From the NCBI RefSeq assembly GCF_027943725.1, contig NZ_AP025696.1, positions 969,501 to 1,033,500 on the forward strand: a DNA stretch of 64,000 bases, in the 5' to 3' direction. The notes below the pieces were generated by a model. It saw nothing but the letters and a program-made list of their open reading frames with translations. It was not told the origin of the DNA and searched no databases. Origin of the DNA: Nitrosophilus kaiyonis (GTDB taxonomy: Bacteria > Campylobacterota > Campylobacteria > Campylobacterales > Nitratiruptoraceae). Below are positions 21,900 to 64,000 of the stretch, piece by piece; positions within the stretch are counted from its first letter, which is position 1, and every line of letters begins with the position of its first letter. The position numbers were made by a program, and so were the translations under genes.

Positions 21900-24377
21900 A
21901 TGGGGAAAATTAAATGTGATCATTGCCATTTGGAATTTGATGAGAGTGTAATGATAGAAGATGAGATAGAAGGTGAAAAGAAATATTTTTGCTGTAAAGG
22001 GTGTCAAGGGGTATATCATCTATTAAAAAGTGAAGGACTTGATAGCTTTTATGAAAAACTTGGAGATACAAAGCTTCAACCTGCTCAGCAAAAAAAAGAA
22101 GATTTAGAAAAGTTTGATTTAGAAGGATTTATAAATAAATATGTAAAAAAAAGAGAAGATGGACTTTATGAAATAAATTTGATTATGGAAGGAATACATT
22201 GTGCTGCTTGTGTTTGGTTAAATGAGAAGGTTTTACATCAAACTCCAGGAATTATTGAAGCAAGTATAAACTATACAAACAATAAAGCAAAAATAGTTTG
22301 GGATCCAGAGGAGATAAAGCTTTCAAAAATCATTGAGACTATAAGATCGATTGGTTATAACGCATATCCATATGATCCAAAACTTCAAGAAGAAAGAGCC
22401 ACTAAAGCAAGAAGAGACTATTATGCTAGGATTTTGGTAGCTGTATTTGCTACTATGAATATTATGTGGATTGCAATTGCTCAATATGTTGGCTTTTTTA
22501 CAGGAATGAGACAAGATATAAAAGATATTTTAAATGTTGCTGAGTTTGTTTTAGCAACTCCGACTCTTTTTTATAGTGGATGGGTCTATTTTAAAGGTGC
22601 ATATTATGGACTTAAAAATAGATTTGTTAATATGGATCTGCTTGTAGCAAGCGGAGCAAGTTTAGCCTATATTTACTCTATTTATGCAATGATTACAAGA
22701 GTTGGAGAGGTATATTTTGACTCAGTTACAATGATAGTTACTTTTGTTTTAGTTGGTAAATATCTTGAAGTTTTAAGCAAAAAACAGGCAGTTGATACTC
22801 TTGATAGTGTACTTGGAACTATTCCTACAGAAGTAACAGTAATTAAAAATAATGAAAAATCTCTTGTTTTGATTGAAAATGTTGAGCCTGGAGATATAAT
22901 TGAGGTAAAGCCTGGAGAAAAGATTGTAATTGATGGTGTAATTATAAATGGAAGTGCCTCTTTTGATGAGAGCTCCTTAACAGGAGAGAGTGAACCTGTT
23001 TTTAAAAAAGAGGGAGATGAAGTTTTAAGTGGTTCAATCTGTTTAGATTCAGTTATAAGATATGAGGCAAAAAAAGATTTTTCAACATCACTTTTATCAA
23101 ATATAGCTACTCTTTTAGAAGATTCAATTACCAAAAAGCCAAAAATTGAAAAGTTGGCAAATCAAATAAGCGGTTATTTTAGTTTAACAATATTGAGTTT
23201 AGCTATTTTAACATTTGCTGGATGGTATTTTTATATAGGAGAGTTTGAGAGGGCTTTAATAGTTGCGATATCAGTTATAGTTATAGCTTGTCCTTGTGCT
23301 TTAGGACTTGCTACACCAATGGCAACTCTTGTTGGACTTGGGATTTCAGCTAAAAAAGGGATACTCTTTAAAGAGGCTGCTCAGTTAGAGACAATGGCAA
23401 AAAGTGATGTGTTGGTTTTAGATAAAACAGGAACTATTACTGAGGGAAAACCTGAAGTTGTTAGCTATGAGAAATTAAAAGATTTTGATGAAAATATAGT
23501 ATTTTCACTTGTAAAAAACTCAAATCATCCAATAAGTAAAGGAGTGGAGAAGTTTTTGAAAGAAAGGTTGAAGGATGAAGGTAGAAGGGAGAAGAGGGAG
23601 AATATAAAAGATAAATTTGAAGTTTCAAGTTTCACGAATCACGAATTACGAATTACGAACTTTAAAGAGATAAAAGCTAAAGGTTTAGAAGCTATTGTAG
23701 ATGGCAAAAAAGTTATCGGTGGAAACAAAGAGTATTTAGGAGAAAATGGTATAAAAGTAGAAATAGAGAGTGAAAATAGCCTTTTTTTAGTTGCAATTGA
23801 TAGTGAACTTGTTGCAATATATGAGCTAAGTGATAAGATAAAGGAAAAAACTGCCCAAGCAATAACAAAAATAAAAGAGCTTGGTATAAAAGTTATAATG
23901 TTAACAGGAGATAATGAAAAAGCAGCAAAAAAAGTGGCAGATTTAGTTGGGATTGATGAGTATTATGCGAAGCTTTTGCCTCAAGATAAAAGTTCATTTA
24001 TAGAAAAACTTCATAAAAATGGTCATATTGTGGTAATGGCTGGAGATGGTATAAACGATTCTATAGCTCTTGCTTGCAGTGATATTGCTATTGCAATGGG
24101 AAGTGGGGCTGATATTGCTATAAGTGTTAGTGATGTAGTATTGCTTGATGAAAAACCATATAGCATATATGAAGCTTATAAGATAAGCAAAAGAGTTTAT
24201 AAAGCTATAAAAGAAAATCTTGCACTGTCTTTGATATATAATACCATAGCAGTTCCTGCTGCAATTTTAGGATTTGTAAATCCGTTGGTTGCAGCTTTGA
24301 GTATGTCTCTTAGCTCACTTTTGGTTGTTGGTAATTCATTTAGGATTAAAATGAGTGAGAAAGATGCGAAGCAGTGA
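21900..24377 (+). CDS. ccoI: CcoI/FixI copper-transporting P1B-type ATPase
   Basis: An 825-residue inner-membrane ATPase supplying copper for cbb3 oxidase. It has an N-terminal Cys-rich metal-binding segment (C6/C9, C31-C32-C35) as in CcoI, then an HMA domain with C101-x2-C104. Next come TGES 361-364, the CPC ion site 464-466, the phosphorylated Asp in DKTGT 508-512, an HP pair at 543-544 and GDGINDS near 720. Eight membrane helices are expected. The nucleotide-binding domain is lengthened: residues about 554-589 are built from repeat words, including 578-587 from a tandem ACGAATT tract. ccoS downstream supports the assignment. Confidence 0.93.
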   Translation: MGKIKCDHCHLEFDESVMIEDEIEGEKKYFCCKGCQGVYHLLKSEGLDSFYEKLGDTKLQPAQQKKEDLEKFDLEGFINKYVKKREDGLYEINLIMEGIHCAACVWLNEKVLHQTPGIIEASINYTNNKAKIVWDPEEIKLSKIIETIRSIGYNAYPYDPKLQEERATKARRDYYARILVAVFATMNIMWIAIAQYVGFFTGMRQDIKDILNVAEFVLATPTLFYSGWVYFKGAYYGLKNRFVNMDLLVASGASLAYIYSIYAMITRVGEVYFDSVTMIVTFVLVGKYLEVLSKKQAVDTLDSVLGTIPTEVTVIKNNEKSLVLIENVEPGDIIEVKPGEKIVIDGVIINGSASFDESSLTGESEPVFKKEGDEVLSGSICLDSVIRYEAKKDFSTSLLSNIATLLEDSITKKPKIEKLANQISGYFSLTILSLAILTFAGWYFYIGEFERALIVAISVIVIACPCALGLATPMATLVGLGISAKKGILFKEAAQLETMAKSDVLVLDKTGTITEGKPEVVSYEKLKDFDENIVFSLVKNSNHPISKGVEKFLKERLKDEGRREKRENIKDKFEVSSFTNHELRITNFKEIKAKGLEAIVDGKKVIGGNKEYLGENGIKVEIESENSLFLVAIDSELVAIYELSDKIKEKTAQAITKIKELGIKVIMLTGDNEKAAKKVADLVGIDEYYAKLLPQDKSSFIEKLHKNGHIVVMAGDGINDSIALACSDIAIAMGSGADIAISVSDVVLLDEKPYSIYEAYKISKRVYKAIKENLALSLIYNTIAVPAAILGFVNPLVAALSMSLSSLLVVGNSFRIKMSEKDAKQ
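23632..23660 (+). repeat. ACGAATT-type word tract inside ccoI
   Basis: Four near-identical ACGAATY units in tandem, read in frame as part of the CcoI nucleotide-binding domain. The same word occurs intergenically at 42795-42825, 43201-43229, 44590-44640, 48485-48545, 51185-51235 and 62255-62320. The upstream bases 23560-23605 also look word-derived (GAAGG-type units). Confidence 0.8.
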
Positions 24378-24471: not shown

Positions 24472-24650
24472 GTGAGAGAGAGCAAAGCGAAGTTTTAAGA
24501 CAACAACTGCTTGTTGTCTGTGCCCGAGCGAAAGCCTTGAGTATATGTGAGTCCGAAAAACAAGGTTTTTCGTGACGAACATACGAAAGGCTGGTTTACC
24601 TTGAAGCAAACGTAGTTGAGCAAAGCGAAACAAGTTTGCGGTTAGATTTG
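24472..24650 (+). repeat. structured multi-hairpin element, copy A (candidate RNA)
   Basis: First of three copies. Hairpins, 5' to 3': AGACAACA/TGTTGTCT (24498-24505 with 24512-24519) around loop ACTGCT; closing stem AGCCT/AGGCT (24533-24537 with 24588-24592); TATGT/ACATA (24544-24548 with 24579-24583); CGAAAAA/TTTTTCG (24554-24560 with 24566-24572) around loop CAAGG; GCAAAC/GTTTGC (24606-24611 with 24634-24639). Conserved single strands are TGGTTTAC and CGGTTAGAT. It lies in sense between ccoI and ccoS. No open frame is seen and the Rfam identity is unknown to me. Confidence 0.8.
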
Positions 24651-24764
24651 AGTGGTAAGGTGGTAAAGGAGAGGGGAATAAAGGAATGAAGCCGCTAATG
24701 TCCAATGTCCAAATATCTAATGACCAATAACTAATGACTAATGTCTAATATCAAAAGGAGTTTT

Positions 24765-24998
24765 ATGAGTGCTGGAATAGTAGCGATGATGCTAGGTGTT
24801 TCTACTTTACTTGGGGCTTTAGGATTGATTGCTCTTTTATGGGGGCTTAAAAGCGGTCAATTTGATGATACTTCAAAATTTTTAGATGGTGCAAGATTTG
24901 ATGGTGAAGAAGAGCTTAAAGATGCAGTTATGATGGAAGAAAAAAAGAAAAAAGCGCTTGAAAAGAGAAGAAAAGATAAAAGAGTAATGCCGAATTAA
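24765..24998 (+). CDS. ccoS: cbb3 oxidase assembly protein CcoS
   Basis: A 77-residue single-pass inner-membrane protein needed for maturation of cbb3-type cytochrome oxidase. The hydrophobic helix at residues 3-25 is followed by LLWGLKSGQFDDTSKFLDGARFD, the CcoS signature GQFDD, and a charged tail. ATG 24765 has AAGGAG 4 bases before it. An upstream in-frame ATG at 24741 lies in repeat DNA and adds eight residues unlike the family, so it is rejected. It follows ccoI, its usual partner, across a repeat-filled gap. Confidence 0.9.
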   Translation: MSAGIVAMMLGVSTLLGALGLIALLWGLKSGQFDDTSKFLDGARFDGEEELKDAVMMEEKKKKALEKRRKDKRVMPN

Positions 24999-49168: not shown

Positions 49169-49879
49169 ATGATAATATATCCAGCAATAGATATTAAAGA
49201 TGGAAAAGCAGTTAGGCTTACAAAAGGGCTTATGGATAGTGCCAAAATATATAGTAATGAGCCTTGGGAATTAGCAAAAAAATTTGAAAGTCTTGGTGCA
49301 AAATGGCTACATCTTGTAGATTTAAATGGTGCATTTGCAGGGGAGCCAAAAAATTTAGAAGCAATTAAAAAGATTAGAGAAAAATCTAAATTGCATATGC
49401 AGCTTGGGGGCGGCATTAGAGATGAAGAGACAATAAAAAGATATTTAGATTTAGGTATAGATAGAGTGATTTTAGGCTCTATTGCAGCTAAAAACCCCGA
49501 ATTTGTTAAAGATATGGCAAAAAAATATAGAATAGTTGTAGGTATAGATGCTATTGATGGATATGTAGCAGTGGAAGGTTGGGCTAAAACTTCAACAATG
49601 AAAGCAACAGAGCTTGCCAAAGAGTATGCAAAAAGTGGAGTAGAAGCTATAATTTGCACAGATGTATCAAGAGATGGAACACTAAGTGGAGTGAATATCG
49701 ATTTTACAGTATCAATTGCAAAAGCAAGTGGTATCGATACAATTGCAAGTGGTGGTGTAAGAGATATAAATGATATAAAAGCTTTGCTTGATACAAAAAT
49801 TGTTGCTGGTGTGATAGTAGGCAAGGCCTTTTATGAAGGAACATTGGATTTGAAAGAAGCGTTTGCATTAGTGGAATAG
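49169..49879 (+). CDS. hisA: ProFAR isomerase HisA
   Basis: A 236-residue TIM-barrel isomerase of histidine synthesis. [17 protein letters not shown] has the first catalytic Asp (about residue 8), [14 protein letters not shown] and [12 protein letters not shown] the phosphate loop. [12 protein letters not shown] has the second catalytic Asp, and [12 protein letters not shown] closes the barrel. The stop is the beginning of a long repeat-filled gap. Confidence 0.96.
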
Positions 49880-50284
49880 GGGAATAGGGGCATAGTGGAA
49901 TAGGAGGTAAGGTGGTAAGTGAGCGAGGGCAAAGCGAAGCTTTAAGACAACAACTGCTTGTTGTCTGTGCCCGAAATGAAAGCTGAGAGTATATGCGAAG
50001 CCGAAATTCAAGGAATTTCGTGTCTGAGCATACGAACAGCTGGTTTACATTGAAGAAAATCTAGCGAGCGAAGTAAGTGAAGATTTTCGGTTAGATTAGT
50101 TGAGCGAGGTGAGTGAGAGAGTTAGAAAGTTGAATTAGTGGAGTAGCGGGATAGGTGGTAAGGTGATAAGGTAGTAAGGAGTGAAATGTCCAATTCCTAA
50201 TTACCAATGTTCAATTTACTGATCAATGATTACTCGTCACTGATCACTTGCTACTGATTACTATTTACTGAAAAAAGGGGAAAT
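49880..50284. repeat. 405-base gene-free gap of word repeats holding structured copy B
   Basis: Left of the element: GGAATAGGGGCATAGTGG and GGTAAGGTGGTAAG units. Right of it: GTGAGTGAGAG, a TGGAGTAGCGGGATAGG unit, GGTAAGGTGATAAGG, CAATTCCTAATTACCAATG and ACTGATCA/TACTGATTAC units up to 50270. The prmA ribosome site AAAAAAGGGG follows. No coding sense. Confidence 0.8.
49919..50097 (+). repeat. structured multi-hairpin element, copy B (candidate RNA)
   Basis: Best-formed copy. Stems: GGGC/GCCC (49927-49930 with 49969-49972) enclosing AAAGC-GAA-GCTTT (49931-49943) and AGACAACA/TGTTGTCT (49945-49952 with 49959-49966, loop ACTGCT); AGCTG/CAGCT (49981-49985 with 50037-50041) enclosing TATGC/GCATA (49992-49996 with 50028-50032) and CGAAATT/AATTTCG (50002-50008 with 50014-50020, loop CAAGG); GAAAATCT/AGATTTTC (50055-50062 with 50081-50088). 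TGGTTTAC and CGGTTAGAT are unpaired and conserved. Bases 49987-50051 are identical to copy C. Sense between hisA and prmA. Confidence 0.85.
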
Positions 50285-51112
50285 TTGAAAGAGTTTTATT
50301 ATGAAGTGGTTATTACTCCGTCTTCTCATAAAGATGAAATTGAAAGTTTTTTGATGGATCATTTTTATAATGGAATTGAAGAAAATGGAAATTCTTTAAT
50401 TTTAAGAAGTGAAGAGCCTTTGGATGAAATTATCCTAAAAACAAAAGAGTATGTAAAAAATTTATCTAATATTTTTAGTGAAAATATTGATATTGATATC
50501 AAAATTGAGAAGAAAAAAAATATAGATTGGATTGAAGAGTATAAAAAAAGTATAACTCCTGTTGAAGTAGGAAATTTTTATATTCATCCAAGTTGGTATG
50601 AACCAAAAAAAGGAAAAATTGATATAGTAATTGATCCAGCTCTTGCTTTTGGTTCAGGTCATCATCCAAGTACACTTAATTGCCTTAAATTAATTGATGA
50701 GATTGTAAAAAAAGGTGATGAGGTGTTAGATGTTGGAACTGGAAGCGGGATTTTAGCAATAGCAGCAGCTAAAAAAGGTGCAGTTGTTGATATTTGCGAT
50801 ACAGATGAATTAGCTATCAAAGAAGCAGAAAAAAATTTTAAATTAAATAAAACTGAATTTAACAAAGCTTGGGTTGGAAGTGCAGTCAATCTTCAAAAAA
50901 AGTATGATATAGTTATAGCCAACATTGTAGCAGATGTTTTAGTTTTTTTAGCAAAAGATTTAAAAAATGCCTTAAAAGATGGAGGTTTTTTGATACTTTC
51001 TGGTATAGTTGACAAATATCTGCAAAATGTGTTAGAAAAATATAAAGATTTAGATCTTATTAAAAAAATTGAAAAGGATGAATGGATAACATTATTGTTT
51101 AAAAAAAGGTAG
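50285..51112 (+). CDS. prmA: ribosomal protein L11 methyltransferase PrmA
   Basis: A 275-residue SAM-dependent methyltransferase modifying L11. An N-terminal substrate-binding domain (about 1-95) precedes ALAFGSGHHPSTLNCLKLI (about 119-137) and the SAM loop DVGTGSGILAIAAAKKG (about 149-165). IVIANIVADVLVFLAKDL carries the family N-I-x-A motif. Start is TTG 50285 with AAAGGGG upstream. Adjacent ftsH is the same neighbour as in C. jejuni. Confidence 0.93.
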   Translation: MKEFYYEVVITPSSHKDEIESFLMDHFYNGIEENGNSLILRSEEPLDEIILKTKEYVKNLSNIFSENIDIDIKIEKKKNIDWIEEYKKSITPVEVGNFYIHPSWYEPKKGKIDIVIDPALAFGSGHHPSTLNCLKLIDEIVKKGDEVLDVGTGSGILAIAAAKKGAVVDICDTDELAIKEAEKNFKLNKTEFNKAWVGSAVNLQKKYDIVIANIVADVLVFLAKDLKNALKDGGFLILSGIVDKYLQNVLEKYKDLDLIKKIEKDEWITLLFKKR

Positions 51113-61239: not shown

Positions 61240-62238
61240 TTAATCAATACTACATTTTATCTCAAAAACTGCTTCATTTACTTTTTGCATTTTTTTAGAT
61301 GCAATATCTTTGGCCTTTTGATTTCCCTCATTTATAATATTATCTATATATTCATCATTTAAAGTGGCTCTTTTTTCCCTCATTGGCTCTAATACTTTTT
61401 CTATTGATTCAAGACACCATTTTTTACACTCAATACAGCCAATTGTTGCATTTTTGCATCCTTCTTCTACTTTTTTTATTGTCTCTTCGTCACTAAAAGC
61501 TTTATGATAGTCAAAAACCAAACATTTTTGAGGATCACCTGGATCGGTTTTTCTTACTCTTTGAGGATCAGTCTTTGCAACTCTAAGTTTTTGCCATATT
61601 TCATCTTTTGTATCTGTTAAATAAATCGCATTATTATAGCTTTTGCTCATTTTTCTGCCATCAAGTCCTAAAAGTCTTGGAGTAGGACTTAAAAGCTCTT
61701 GAGGTTCAGTAAAAATTTCACAATCAAAAAGATGATGAAATCTTCTAACTATCTCCCTAGCTATTTCAAGATGAGGTCTTTGATCTTCTCCAATTGGAAC
61801 TTTGTTTGCATCATAAAGAATAATATCTGCTGTTTGTAAAACTGGATATGTTAAAAATCCTCCAGTTCTTATATCTTTTCCGCCTTTTTCTTGAAGCTGT
61901 TGAAGTTGATCTTTATATGTTGGATTTCTTTCAAGCCAACCAAGAGGTGTTATCATATTTAAAATTACATATAGCTCAGAATGCTCTTTTATATTGCTTT
62001 GTATAAAAATTGTACTTTTATCTGGATCAATGCCTGCTGCAATCCAATCTTTTACTAACTCTTTACTCAAATTTTTGAGATTTAGCTTATCTTCATAACT
62101 TGTAGATAGTGCATGCCAATCAGCAACAAAGAAAAAGCATTCATTCTCTTTTTGAAGATCTATCCAATTTTTTAATACTCCAAGATAGTGGCCAAGATGA
62201 AGTTTACCCGTGGGTCTCATACCGCTAACAATTCGCAT
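61240..62238 (-). CDS. trpS: tryptophanyl-tRNA synthetase
   Basis: A 332-residue class I synthetase. MRIVSGMRPTGKLHLGHYLG (HIGH-type motif at about 13-17) opens the true protein, and GRKMSKSYNN (about 192-201) is the KMSKS loop. GEDQRPHLEIAREI is also typical. ATG 62238 has AAGGAG upstream. A longer frame to 62322 runs through ACGAATT word DNA and would add 28 residues with no family match, so it is rejected. Confidence 0.95.
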   Translation of the reverse strand: MRIVSGMRPTGKLHLGHYLGVLKNWIDLQKENECFFFVADWHALSTSYEDKLNLKNLSKELVKDWIAAGIDPDKSTIFIQSNIKEHSELYVILNMITPLGWLERNPTYKDQLQQLQEKGGKDIRTGGFLTYPVLQTADIILYDANKVPIGEDQRPHLEIAREIVRRFHHLFDCEIFTEPQELLSPTPRLLGLDGRKMSKSYNNAIYLTDTKDEIWQKLRVAKTDPQRVRKTDPGDPQKCLVFDYHKAFSDEETIKKVEEGCKNATIGCIECKKWCLESIEKVLEPMREKRATLNDEYIDNIINEGNQKAKDIASKKMQKVNEAVFEIKCSID

Positions 62239-62631
62239 TTTTCTCCTTTGTTTTGTAGTTCGTAATTCGTGATTCGTAAATCGTAAACCGTGAATCGTAA
62301 TTCGTGAATCGTGATTAAACATTTGACATTGGGAATTAGTGTTAGTATTAGTATTAAATTATCACTATCCACTATCCCGTTATGTCCCTATTTCACTTTC
62401 TTACTTTCTCACTCAACTTACATAATATTTAACCGAAAATCTTCGCTTGCTTCGCTCACTTTATTTTCATTAATGTAAACCAGCTGTTCGTATGCTCAGA
62501 CACGAAATTCCTTGAATTTCGGCTTCGCATATACTCACAGCTTTCGCTTCGGGACGCAAGCAAAGCAGTTTGCTTGCTCAAAGCTTCGCTTTGCCCTTGC
62601 TCACTTAAATCTTAACTCCAATAACCAATGA
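62239..62631. repeat. 393-base gene-free gap of word repeats holding structured copy C
   Basis: From the trpS side: seven or so TCGTAATTCG/TCGTGAATCG units (62255-62320), GACATTGGGAATTAGTG, AGTATTAGTATTA, CACTATCCACTATCCCG and TTACTTTCTCACTC units, then the structured element. After it, CCAATAACCAATGACTAATG words run into the end of der. No coding sense. Confidence 0.8.
62427..62604 (-). repeat. structured multi-hairpin element, copy C (candidate RNA)
   Basis: Read on the minus strand it matches copy B over the same length. 62472-62536 is the exact complement of 49987-50051 (65 bases). The first hairpin stem is entirely different in sequence, GCAAGCAA/TTGCTTGC (62577-62570 with 62563-62556), yet still fully paired around the same ACTGCT loop. 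AAAGC-GAA-GCTTT is kept; the last stem is GAAAAT/ATTTTC followed by CGGTTAAAT. It lies in sense between der and trpS. Confidence 0.83.
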
Positions 62632-64000
62632 CTAATGACTATTGACTGACGACTCCTCATCCCTTTCCCCTCTTTTGCGAGGAGTTAATATAACAGGTGT
62701 TCCCTCAAGGTCAAAATTTTCTCTTAGTTTATTTATAAGATATCTTTTGTAACTAAAATGAAGTCCTTCAGGTCTATTCATAATTAGAGCAATTTTTGGT
62801 GGTTTTGTTTCATATTGTGTTGCAAATAGTATATTTACTGGTTTGCCATAATATGATGGAATTGCATGTCTTTGAGTTGCCTCTTTTATAATTTTATTTA
62901 ATTTAGAAGTTGGTATCCAACTTGAATAGTTTTTATAAACTTTTAGTATTAAATCATATATTTTGTCAACTCTTTTTTTTGTTTTTGCACTAACTGTTAT
63001 CACTGGGGCAAAATTTAAAAATCTAAATCTATCTCTAACTTTTTTTATAGCCTCTTCATAGCTCATTTTAGCTTCATCCCATTTATTTAAAACGATTATG
63101 CATCCAAGATTGTATCTATCTACAAGTCCTGCAATTTTTTCATCTTGTTCGCTAAATCCTTCGCTTGCATCAAGTACGACCAAAGCTATATCGCTTCTTT
63201 GAAGCATTTTTTCTGTTCTGTTGAGCGCAAATTTTTCTAATCCTTTAATTTTTCCTCTTCGTCTAATACCTGCAGTATCAACAAATGTAATAACTTTATC
63301 TTTATATAGATATGTTTCATCAACTACATCAATAGTAGTCCCTGCAACGTCACTAACAATAGAGCGCTCTTCTTTCAAAAGAGCATTTAAAAGTGAGCTT
63401 TTCCCAACATTTACTCTCCCAATTATTGCAACATTTATCTCATTTGATTCCTCTTCTTTTTTCTCTTCAATTTCTTCTAAAAAAGAGTCAATATCAAGTT
63501 CCTCATCCTCTTCTATAACTAAAAATTCTTTTTTTGGAAGTCTTGATTCTATCCAATCAATCAGTTTTTTAACTTTTCTATTATGAGAAACTGAAATAGG
63601 AAAAATATTTTGAGTACCGAAAGAGTAAAACTCCCAAACATTCTCTTCTAATTTGTCATTATCTATTTTATTAACAACTAAAGCAACATCTTTATTAAGT
63701 TTTAAAAGATCTAAAAAAATTTTTTTGTCTTCATCATCAGGGAGTTTTTGTCCATCAACCATATAAAGAACAATATCTGCTTCTTTTGCAGCTTCCAAAG
63801 CTTTTTCTTTTACTTTATTGAAAAGTTCATCTCTGTCTTCAAGTCCACCAGTATCAATTAAAATAGCCTCTTTTTCTCCAATTTTTATAGGCTTTTTTTT
63901 AATATCCCTTGTGGTACCGGCCACTTCGCTTGTTATAGCAACTCTTTGTTTTAAGAGTCTATTAAATAGAGAGCTTTTTCCAACATTTGGTTTTCCTAAA
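62632..64000 (-). CDS. der: ribosome-assembly GTPase Der (EngA), N-terminus beyond window
   Basis: A double-GTPase protein for 50S maturation. The frame runs to the window edge: LGKPNVGKSSLFNRLL (G1 of domain 1) is encoded at about 63950-64000, so the ATG at 63924 is not the start and a few N-terminal residues are missing. Domain 1 continues with AGTTRD, DTGG and VNKID; domain 2 has GRVNVGKSSLLNALL, DTAGIRRRG and LNKWD. The KH-like C-terminal domain follows and ends GTPVILTPRKRG. The last residues (about EESSVNSH) and stop come from the AGTCAATAGTCATTAG word. Confidence 0.94.
   Translation of the reverse strand, partial: LGKPNVGKSSLFNRLLKQRVAITSEVAGTTRDIKKKPIKIGEKEAILIDTGGLEDRDELFNKVKEKALEAAKEADIVLYMVDGQKLPDDEDKKIFLDLLKLNKDVALVVNKIDNDKLEENVWEFYSFGTQNIFPISVSHNRKVKKLIDWIESRLPKKEFLVIEEDEELDIDSFLEEIEEKKEEESNEINVAIIGRVNVGKSSLLNALLKEERSIVSDVAGTTIDVVDETYLYKDKVITFVDTAGIRRRGKIKGLEKFALNRTEKMLQRSDIALVVLDASEGFSEQDEKIAGLVDRYNLGCIIVLNKWDEAKMSYEEAIKKVRDRFRFLNFAPVITVSAKTKKRVDKIYDLILKVYKNYSSWIPTSKLNKIIKEATQRHAIPSYYGKPVNILFATQYETKPPKIALIMNRPEGLHFSYKRYLINKLRENFDLEGTPVILTPRKRGERDEESSVNSH

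Follow-up and report, generated by a model that had tools for sequence, protein, structure and literature searches.

A dispersed structured element, apparently of an undescribed family, at gene ends in Campylobacterota

What is the folded element of about 175 nt that lies between hisA (49169-49879, + strand) and a prmA-like gene (50285-51112, + strand) of Nitrosophilus kaiyonis, and does it act as an RNA? The window, which is the whole 64,000-nt stretch of DNA analysed, covers positions 969501-1033500 of the complete 1,769,550-base genome (G000), and the relatives compared were Campylobacterales. A sequence-only reading had described three copies of about 178 nt in the window and proposed that they were a candidate new structured RNA or RNA-based repeat.

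All three copies were present. Their limits are now those of R1, a covariance model based on 30 copies from G000, G002, G003, G006 and G008. Copy 1 occupies 24472-24644 on the + strand (195.3 bits; genome 993972-994144), copy 2, the copy under study, 49919-50093 on the + strand (196.0 bits; genome 1019419-1019593), and copy 3 62604-62430 on the − strand (183.1 bits; genome 1031930-1032104). Copy 1 has a P-type ATPase gene (21900-24377, +) on one side and a ccoS-like gene (24741-24998, +) on the other, and the neighbours of copy 3 are a der-like GTPase gene (62632-63924, −) and trpS (61240-62322, −); the flanking genes are co-directional at all three copies. The earlier statement that no ORF lies inside the element was borne out. 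The sole frame of at least 60 aa overlapping copy 1 is an antisense frame of 85 aa, which we read as chance, and the copies are taken to hold no coding gene.

Fold of the element and its covariation

From 5' to 3' the element consists of GTGAGC, stem P1 with hairpins P1a and P1b inside it, the P2 rod, GGTTTACC, hairpin P3 and GGTTA. In copy 2, covariation supports P1 (5' strand GGGCA at 49927-49931, partner TGCCC at 49968-49972) and the P1a hairpin AAGC-GAA-GCTT (49932-49942). The P1b hairpin, AGACAACAA-CTGC-TTGTTGTCT (49945-49966), is supported by alignment and covariation, and its loop AACTGCTT is almost invariant among the copies. P1, P1a and P1b form a three-way junction. The P2 rod (49981-50041) is made of AGCTG/CAGCT, GA/GA, GTAT/ATAC with a 2-nt AT bulge, GC/GC and the distal hairpin P2b, CGAAATT/AATTTCG; it holds two GA/GA steps, and it covaries, as does P3 (GAAAATC ... 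GATTTTC, 50055-50088). The conserved 3' end GGTTA (50089-50093) was defined by alignment. The stems and two-sided changes listed in the sequence-only reading were found in the sequences, while the outer stem P1 (GGGCA/TGCCC) and hairpin P1a (AAGC/GCTT) had been overlooked.

The minimum free energy (MFE) fold of copy 2 matches the covariation fold and adds a closing stem, P0, GUGAGC/GUUUAC. Its 5' strand GTGAGC (49919-49924) is placed by the MFE fold, the pair list and the empty sites, and its 3' strand GTTTAC (50043-50048) by the MFE fold and the pair list. The pairs of P0 show several changes from G-U to A-U or G-C, one double change only and several breaks, and P0 is kept in the fold model tentatively. 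In several other copies, the upstream gene ends at the TGA within GTGAGC.

Among 30 distinct sequences, 25 of the 45 pairs were changed on both sides, and standard pairs filled 93.5% of pair cells, compared with 33-47% when the partners were slid. Double-changed cells numbered 173, against a mean of 62 in shuffles (none of 500 shuffles reached the observed value) and 5-23 when partners were slid by 1-3 columns. When column pairs were ranked by a background-corrected covariation score, blind to the structure, the top eight were all proposed base pairs. The covariation above background that had been predicted was thus present, well over both the shuffled and the slid controls. G-U cells outnumbered A-C cells (72 and 24, as raw counts across related copies), which points to the sense strand as the structured one. 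These results show a conserved fold under selection on the sense strand.

Swapping of hairpins among dispersed copies of one genome could give covariation as well, and the test was therefore made locus by locus, at tsf and frr. Behind tsf, G006, G007, G008 and G013 have a full copy, while G009 keeps the P1 domain alone and G012 a remnant. Behind frr, copies are found in G003 (genus g1) and in G006, G008, G009 and G017 (genus g3), with a partial one in G007. In four tsf copies, with helices picked by eye, all 172 scored cells were paired, and the 13 variable pair positions comprised 8 compensatory changes and 5 one-sided changes to or from a G-U wobble. When pairs were fitted by the model, a procedure which favours the model, tsf gave 10 double-changed pairs against 3.2 in shuffles and frr gave 6 against 2.5. 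Compensatory change in place at tsf and frr indicates that selection maintains the structure also where a copy remains in its place, and it exceeds what a selfish copy needs. Gene conversion among copies could mimic part of this in-place covariation. In a tree of 47 copies, those of tsf and those of frr clustered by locus with starred support, and such locus-specific clades argue against gene conversion. At frr and tsf, some partial copies of P1a-P1b have U-rich runs such as CCCTCTTTTTG after them.

Distribution and comparison with known systems

In G000, a genome of 1.77 Mb, a DNA search with copy 2 gave about 30 copies, whole or partial, and R1 gave 31 strong matches, each scoring 113 bits or more. 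These numbers and the count of double-changed cells exclude chance. Of 298 genomes from the phylum, R1 also matched 19, which fall in five genera. One of these genera is Campylobacter, with a pattern match within C. concisus. At about 90 nt, the relatives in Campylobacter are shorter; they have P1, P1b and a short P2, and they covary too. A second model, R2, was built from eight Campylobacter-type copies alone. It matched 32 of 397 genomes in eight genera and recovered the G000 copies at E ~1e-5; since R2 was built without G000 copies, this is independent evidence of homology. A covariance model made from the copies, as had been suggested, therefore recovers the family both genome-wide and across Campylobacterota, and the element of about 175 nt appears to represent an undescribed family with relatives throughout the phylum.

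Several of the Campylobacter copies sit between prophage genes (the end of a Mu A transposase gene, tail sheath and tail proteins, named from their translations). No phage or plasmid collection gave a match to the element, and two pattern scans of viral contigs in IMG/VR gave zero matches.

The element had no match in Rfam at gathering or lax thresholds, and the lax run gave only an implausible sub-threshold match (E 0.91) beside copy 2. The earlier reading had not recognised it as a group I or II intron or a known riboswitch, and there was indeed no Rfam match in the window. No tRNA or tmRNA was found, and a scan around copy 2 gave no intrinsic terminator (hairpin plus U-tract). No description of the element was found in the open-licence literature.

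HEARO RNA is reportedly a multi-copy structured RNA at preferred insertion sites, often without an ORF. HEARO or OMEGA RNA was rejected as an identity of the element, which had no match to RF02033; no likeness of sequence and structure was seen, and IscB is absent from G000 and nearly absent from the phylum sample. The sole IscB locus has a HEARO RNA upstream, with an Rfam score of 79.7 bits, just below the cut-off, and R1 and R2 ignore that RNA. TnpB omegaRNA was rejected as well, for at 30 loci no element lay at the 3' end of tnpB.

Like MITEs, the element is small and non-autonomous, with many dispersed copies (31 strong) and empty sites at rlmH and fabG. It differs from REP/RAYT systems in its multi-domain fold of about 175 nt and in that no Y1_Tnp was found in G000-G008. 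ERIC/IRU sequences are dispersed repeats of about 100-200 bp with a conserved RNA fold, which are co-transcribed and have an orientation-dependent effect on the upstream mRNA (PMC2229807). The element shares with them the dispersed small repeat and the conserved RNA fold, and it may likewise be co-transcribed. ERIC is a long stem-loop with a 7-bp terminal inverted repeat (TIR) and TA termini (PMC2229807), whereas the element is multi-domain, lacks a consistent TIR and favours stop codons and CRISPR repeats. Correia/NEMIS, RUP and QMITE2, the last found mostly in 3' untranslated regions (PMC10969869), are likewise small, non-autonomous dispersed repeats with stable RNA; they have TIRs and are usually derived from IS elements, whereas the G000 copies have no consistent TIR and G000 has no Y1_Tnp, RVT_1, TnpB or IscB. 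The MRSC motifs of Breaker and colleagues covary, have many copies per genome and possibly act as DNA, and inconsistent orientation to neighbouring genes is one of their marks (PMC11109978). The element is similar to them in covariation and copy number, but it is mostly sense-oriented. The main text of that paper does not mention Campylobacter, Nitratiruptor, Nautilia or Sulfurovum. By its behaviour, the element is best read as a new MITE/ERIC-like family of dispersed structured repeats that is not ERIC, REP, HEARO or any Rfam family.

Insertion sites and the search for a mover

In G000 the junction at rlmH reads CATAAA|TGAGCG, and eight relatives showed an empty site there, in which the gene runs straight to TAA, TAG or TGA. 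The fabG junction, TATATG|TGAGC, is filled in G000 and in G008, which belongs to a different genus, and is empty in eleven others. On the simplest reading of these sequences, the fabG stop codon was probably struck independently in the two genera. The TGA of the element also terminates rny, ddl, lysC, lpxA and tsf, and in distant relatives it ends RNase J, an SQR-like gene, groEL and Mu A (all names from translations). At frr a stop codon, TAG or TAA, lies at the equivalent place. Many G000 copies are found 8-100 nt past the stop codon, behind a low-complexity leader, so that targeting of stop codons is not universal. About 25 of 29 G000 copies have the same orientation as the gene upstream of them (binomial p ~1e-4).

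Six copies interrupt CRISPR repeats at the distal end of the array (in G002, G003, G006 and G008), all six in sense. Only these CRISPR-borne copies have GTGAGC/GCTCAC ends plus a duplication of 5-6 bp. The G000 copies are without the 3' repeat, and no terminal inverted repeat or duplication is consistent among them. A shorter relative that also carries the AACTGCTT hairpin was observed in inverted orientation inside P1b of full elements or in CRISPR repeats. The GTTAAGC motif of short relatives had been considered for a likeness to attC sites of integrons; this was dropped, as the motif lies inside the junction and not at the ends.

Tandem, partial and nested inverted copies exist. The copy at hsdS is flanked by a 52-nt direct repeat that spans the hsdS start, and the gene is restored downstream of the insertion. 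The tandem and nested copies and the hsdS repeat show rearrangement and give no clear mechanism.

The search for a transposase or reverse transcriptase (RT) beside the copies, suggested at the outset, covered Y1_Tnp, RVT_1, TnpB and IscB and found none of these travelling with the element. There was no Y1 transposase in G000-G008, and G000 had no RVT_1 or RT. IscB, absent from G000, is carried by one of 397 Campylobacterota genomes. TnpB is absent from the element-bearing genomes G000, G006, G007, G008 and G009, and near the 30 TnpB loci examined R1 and R2 gave zero matches. The tyrosine HUH transposase, RT, IscB and TnpB were thus rejected as movers, being absent from G000 and without a consistent link to the element. 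In G008 and G036 elements do lie near RT genes, at CRISPR loci, and we read this nearness as a by-product of both being at such loci. Large ORFs of 725-735 aa with a reverse transcriptase domain were noted in G008 and G006, the one in G008 near an element-bearing CRISPR locus; they are possibly RT-Cas1 fusions.

Explanations of the element

The explanation we favour, with moderate confidence, is that these are undescribed non-autonomous structured elements of mobile type in Campylobacterota, which act as co-transcribed intercistronic RNA. Mobility is suggested by the copy number and the empty sites. A copy would insert in sense behind a gene, often right at the stop codon, and its own TGA would then close that gene. 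It would be transcribed together with the upstream gene and fold as an intercistronic RNA; location, orientation and the structured strand favour an RNA read through from upstream. For ERIC, a ribosome-induced conformational change that exposes a cleavage site has been proposed (PMC2229807). Here the outermost stems hold the stop codon in their 5' strand, which suggests coupling to translation termination: the terminating ribosome may open and then release the fold. Such opening could make mRNA processing or stability depend on translation of the gene upstream, on the lines proposed for ERIC. Transcription, processing and mRNA effect of the element are all inferred.

The copies might instead be purely selfish DNA, a MITE or a relic of IS200/IS605 type, whose hairpins serve single-stranded DNA transposition and have no cellular role, the sense bias reflecting insertions that were tolerated. 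High copy number, patchy distribution, empty sites, tandem and nested copies and the 52-nt repeat around the hsdS copy all fit this, and a strand-specific fold is compatible with single-strand transposition. We find it doubtful, while the strongest of the rivals, for the orthologous copies at tsf and frr retain their pairing by compensation after long residence, and G000 has neither a Y1 transposase or RT nor consistent terminal inverted repeats or duplications. An ordinary transcription terminator or 3'-end protector, with copies spread by ordinary recombination, would account for the location at 3' ends and for the partial frr and tsf copies with U-rich runs (CCCTCTTTTTG) after them. It is improbable, given that full copies are without a U-tract, that most lie between co-directional, operon-like genes and that the P2 rod and invariant loop are more elaborate than a terminator requires. 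Least credible is a guide-like RNA (an omegaRNA of HEARO/IscB or TnpB), in which the 5' flank would be the guide, supplied by upstream read-through and hence in sense orientation. Like orphan HEARO elements as reported, the copies are numerous, structured, in sense, at preferred sites and without an ORF of their own. IscB in a single genome of 397, with a HEARO RNA that Rfam detects (79.7 bits) while finding nothing for the element, stands against this, as do the five element-bearing genomes without TnpB and the 30 TnpB loci without an element nearby.

A bolder form of the intercistronic RNA reading, which we regard as unlikely, is that a mobile structured RNA spreads by a transcription- or translation-linked route and lands in sense, either on stop codons of genes that are expressed or at CRISPR array ends. 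Its mover would resemble no known transposase or RT, and the RNA would then turn into a translation-coupled switch within the mRNA of its host.

With this element, the phylum of Campylobacter gains a structured-RNA family that appears to be undescribed and whose covariation is unusually strong. The repeated landing on stop codons, the copies in CRISPR repeats and the compensatory evolution at fixed loci raise two questions, namely how a small element locates gene ends when no mover can be recognised, and which role in mRNA makes selection maintain the fold of locus-bound copies.

The G000 spacers also contain low-complexity tracts, rich in G/A/T and then in C/A/T, which resemble degenerate long inverted repeats. 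Such tracts lie at 50100-50280, 24645-24760 and 62300-62430 of the window and in the tsf and frr spacers, and they occur also where the element is absent.
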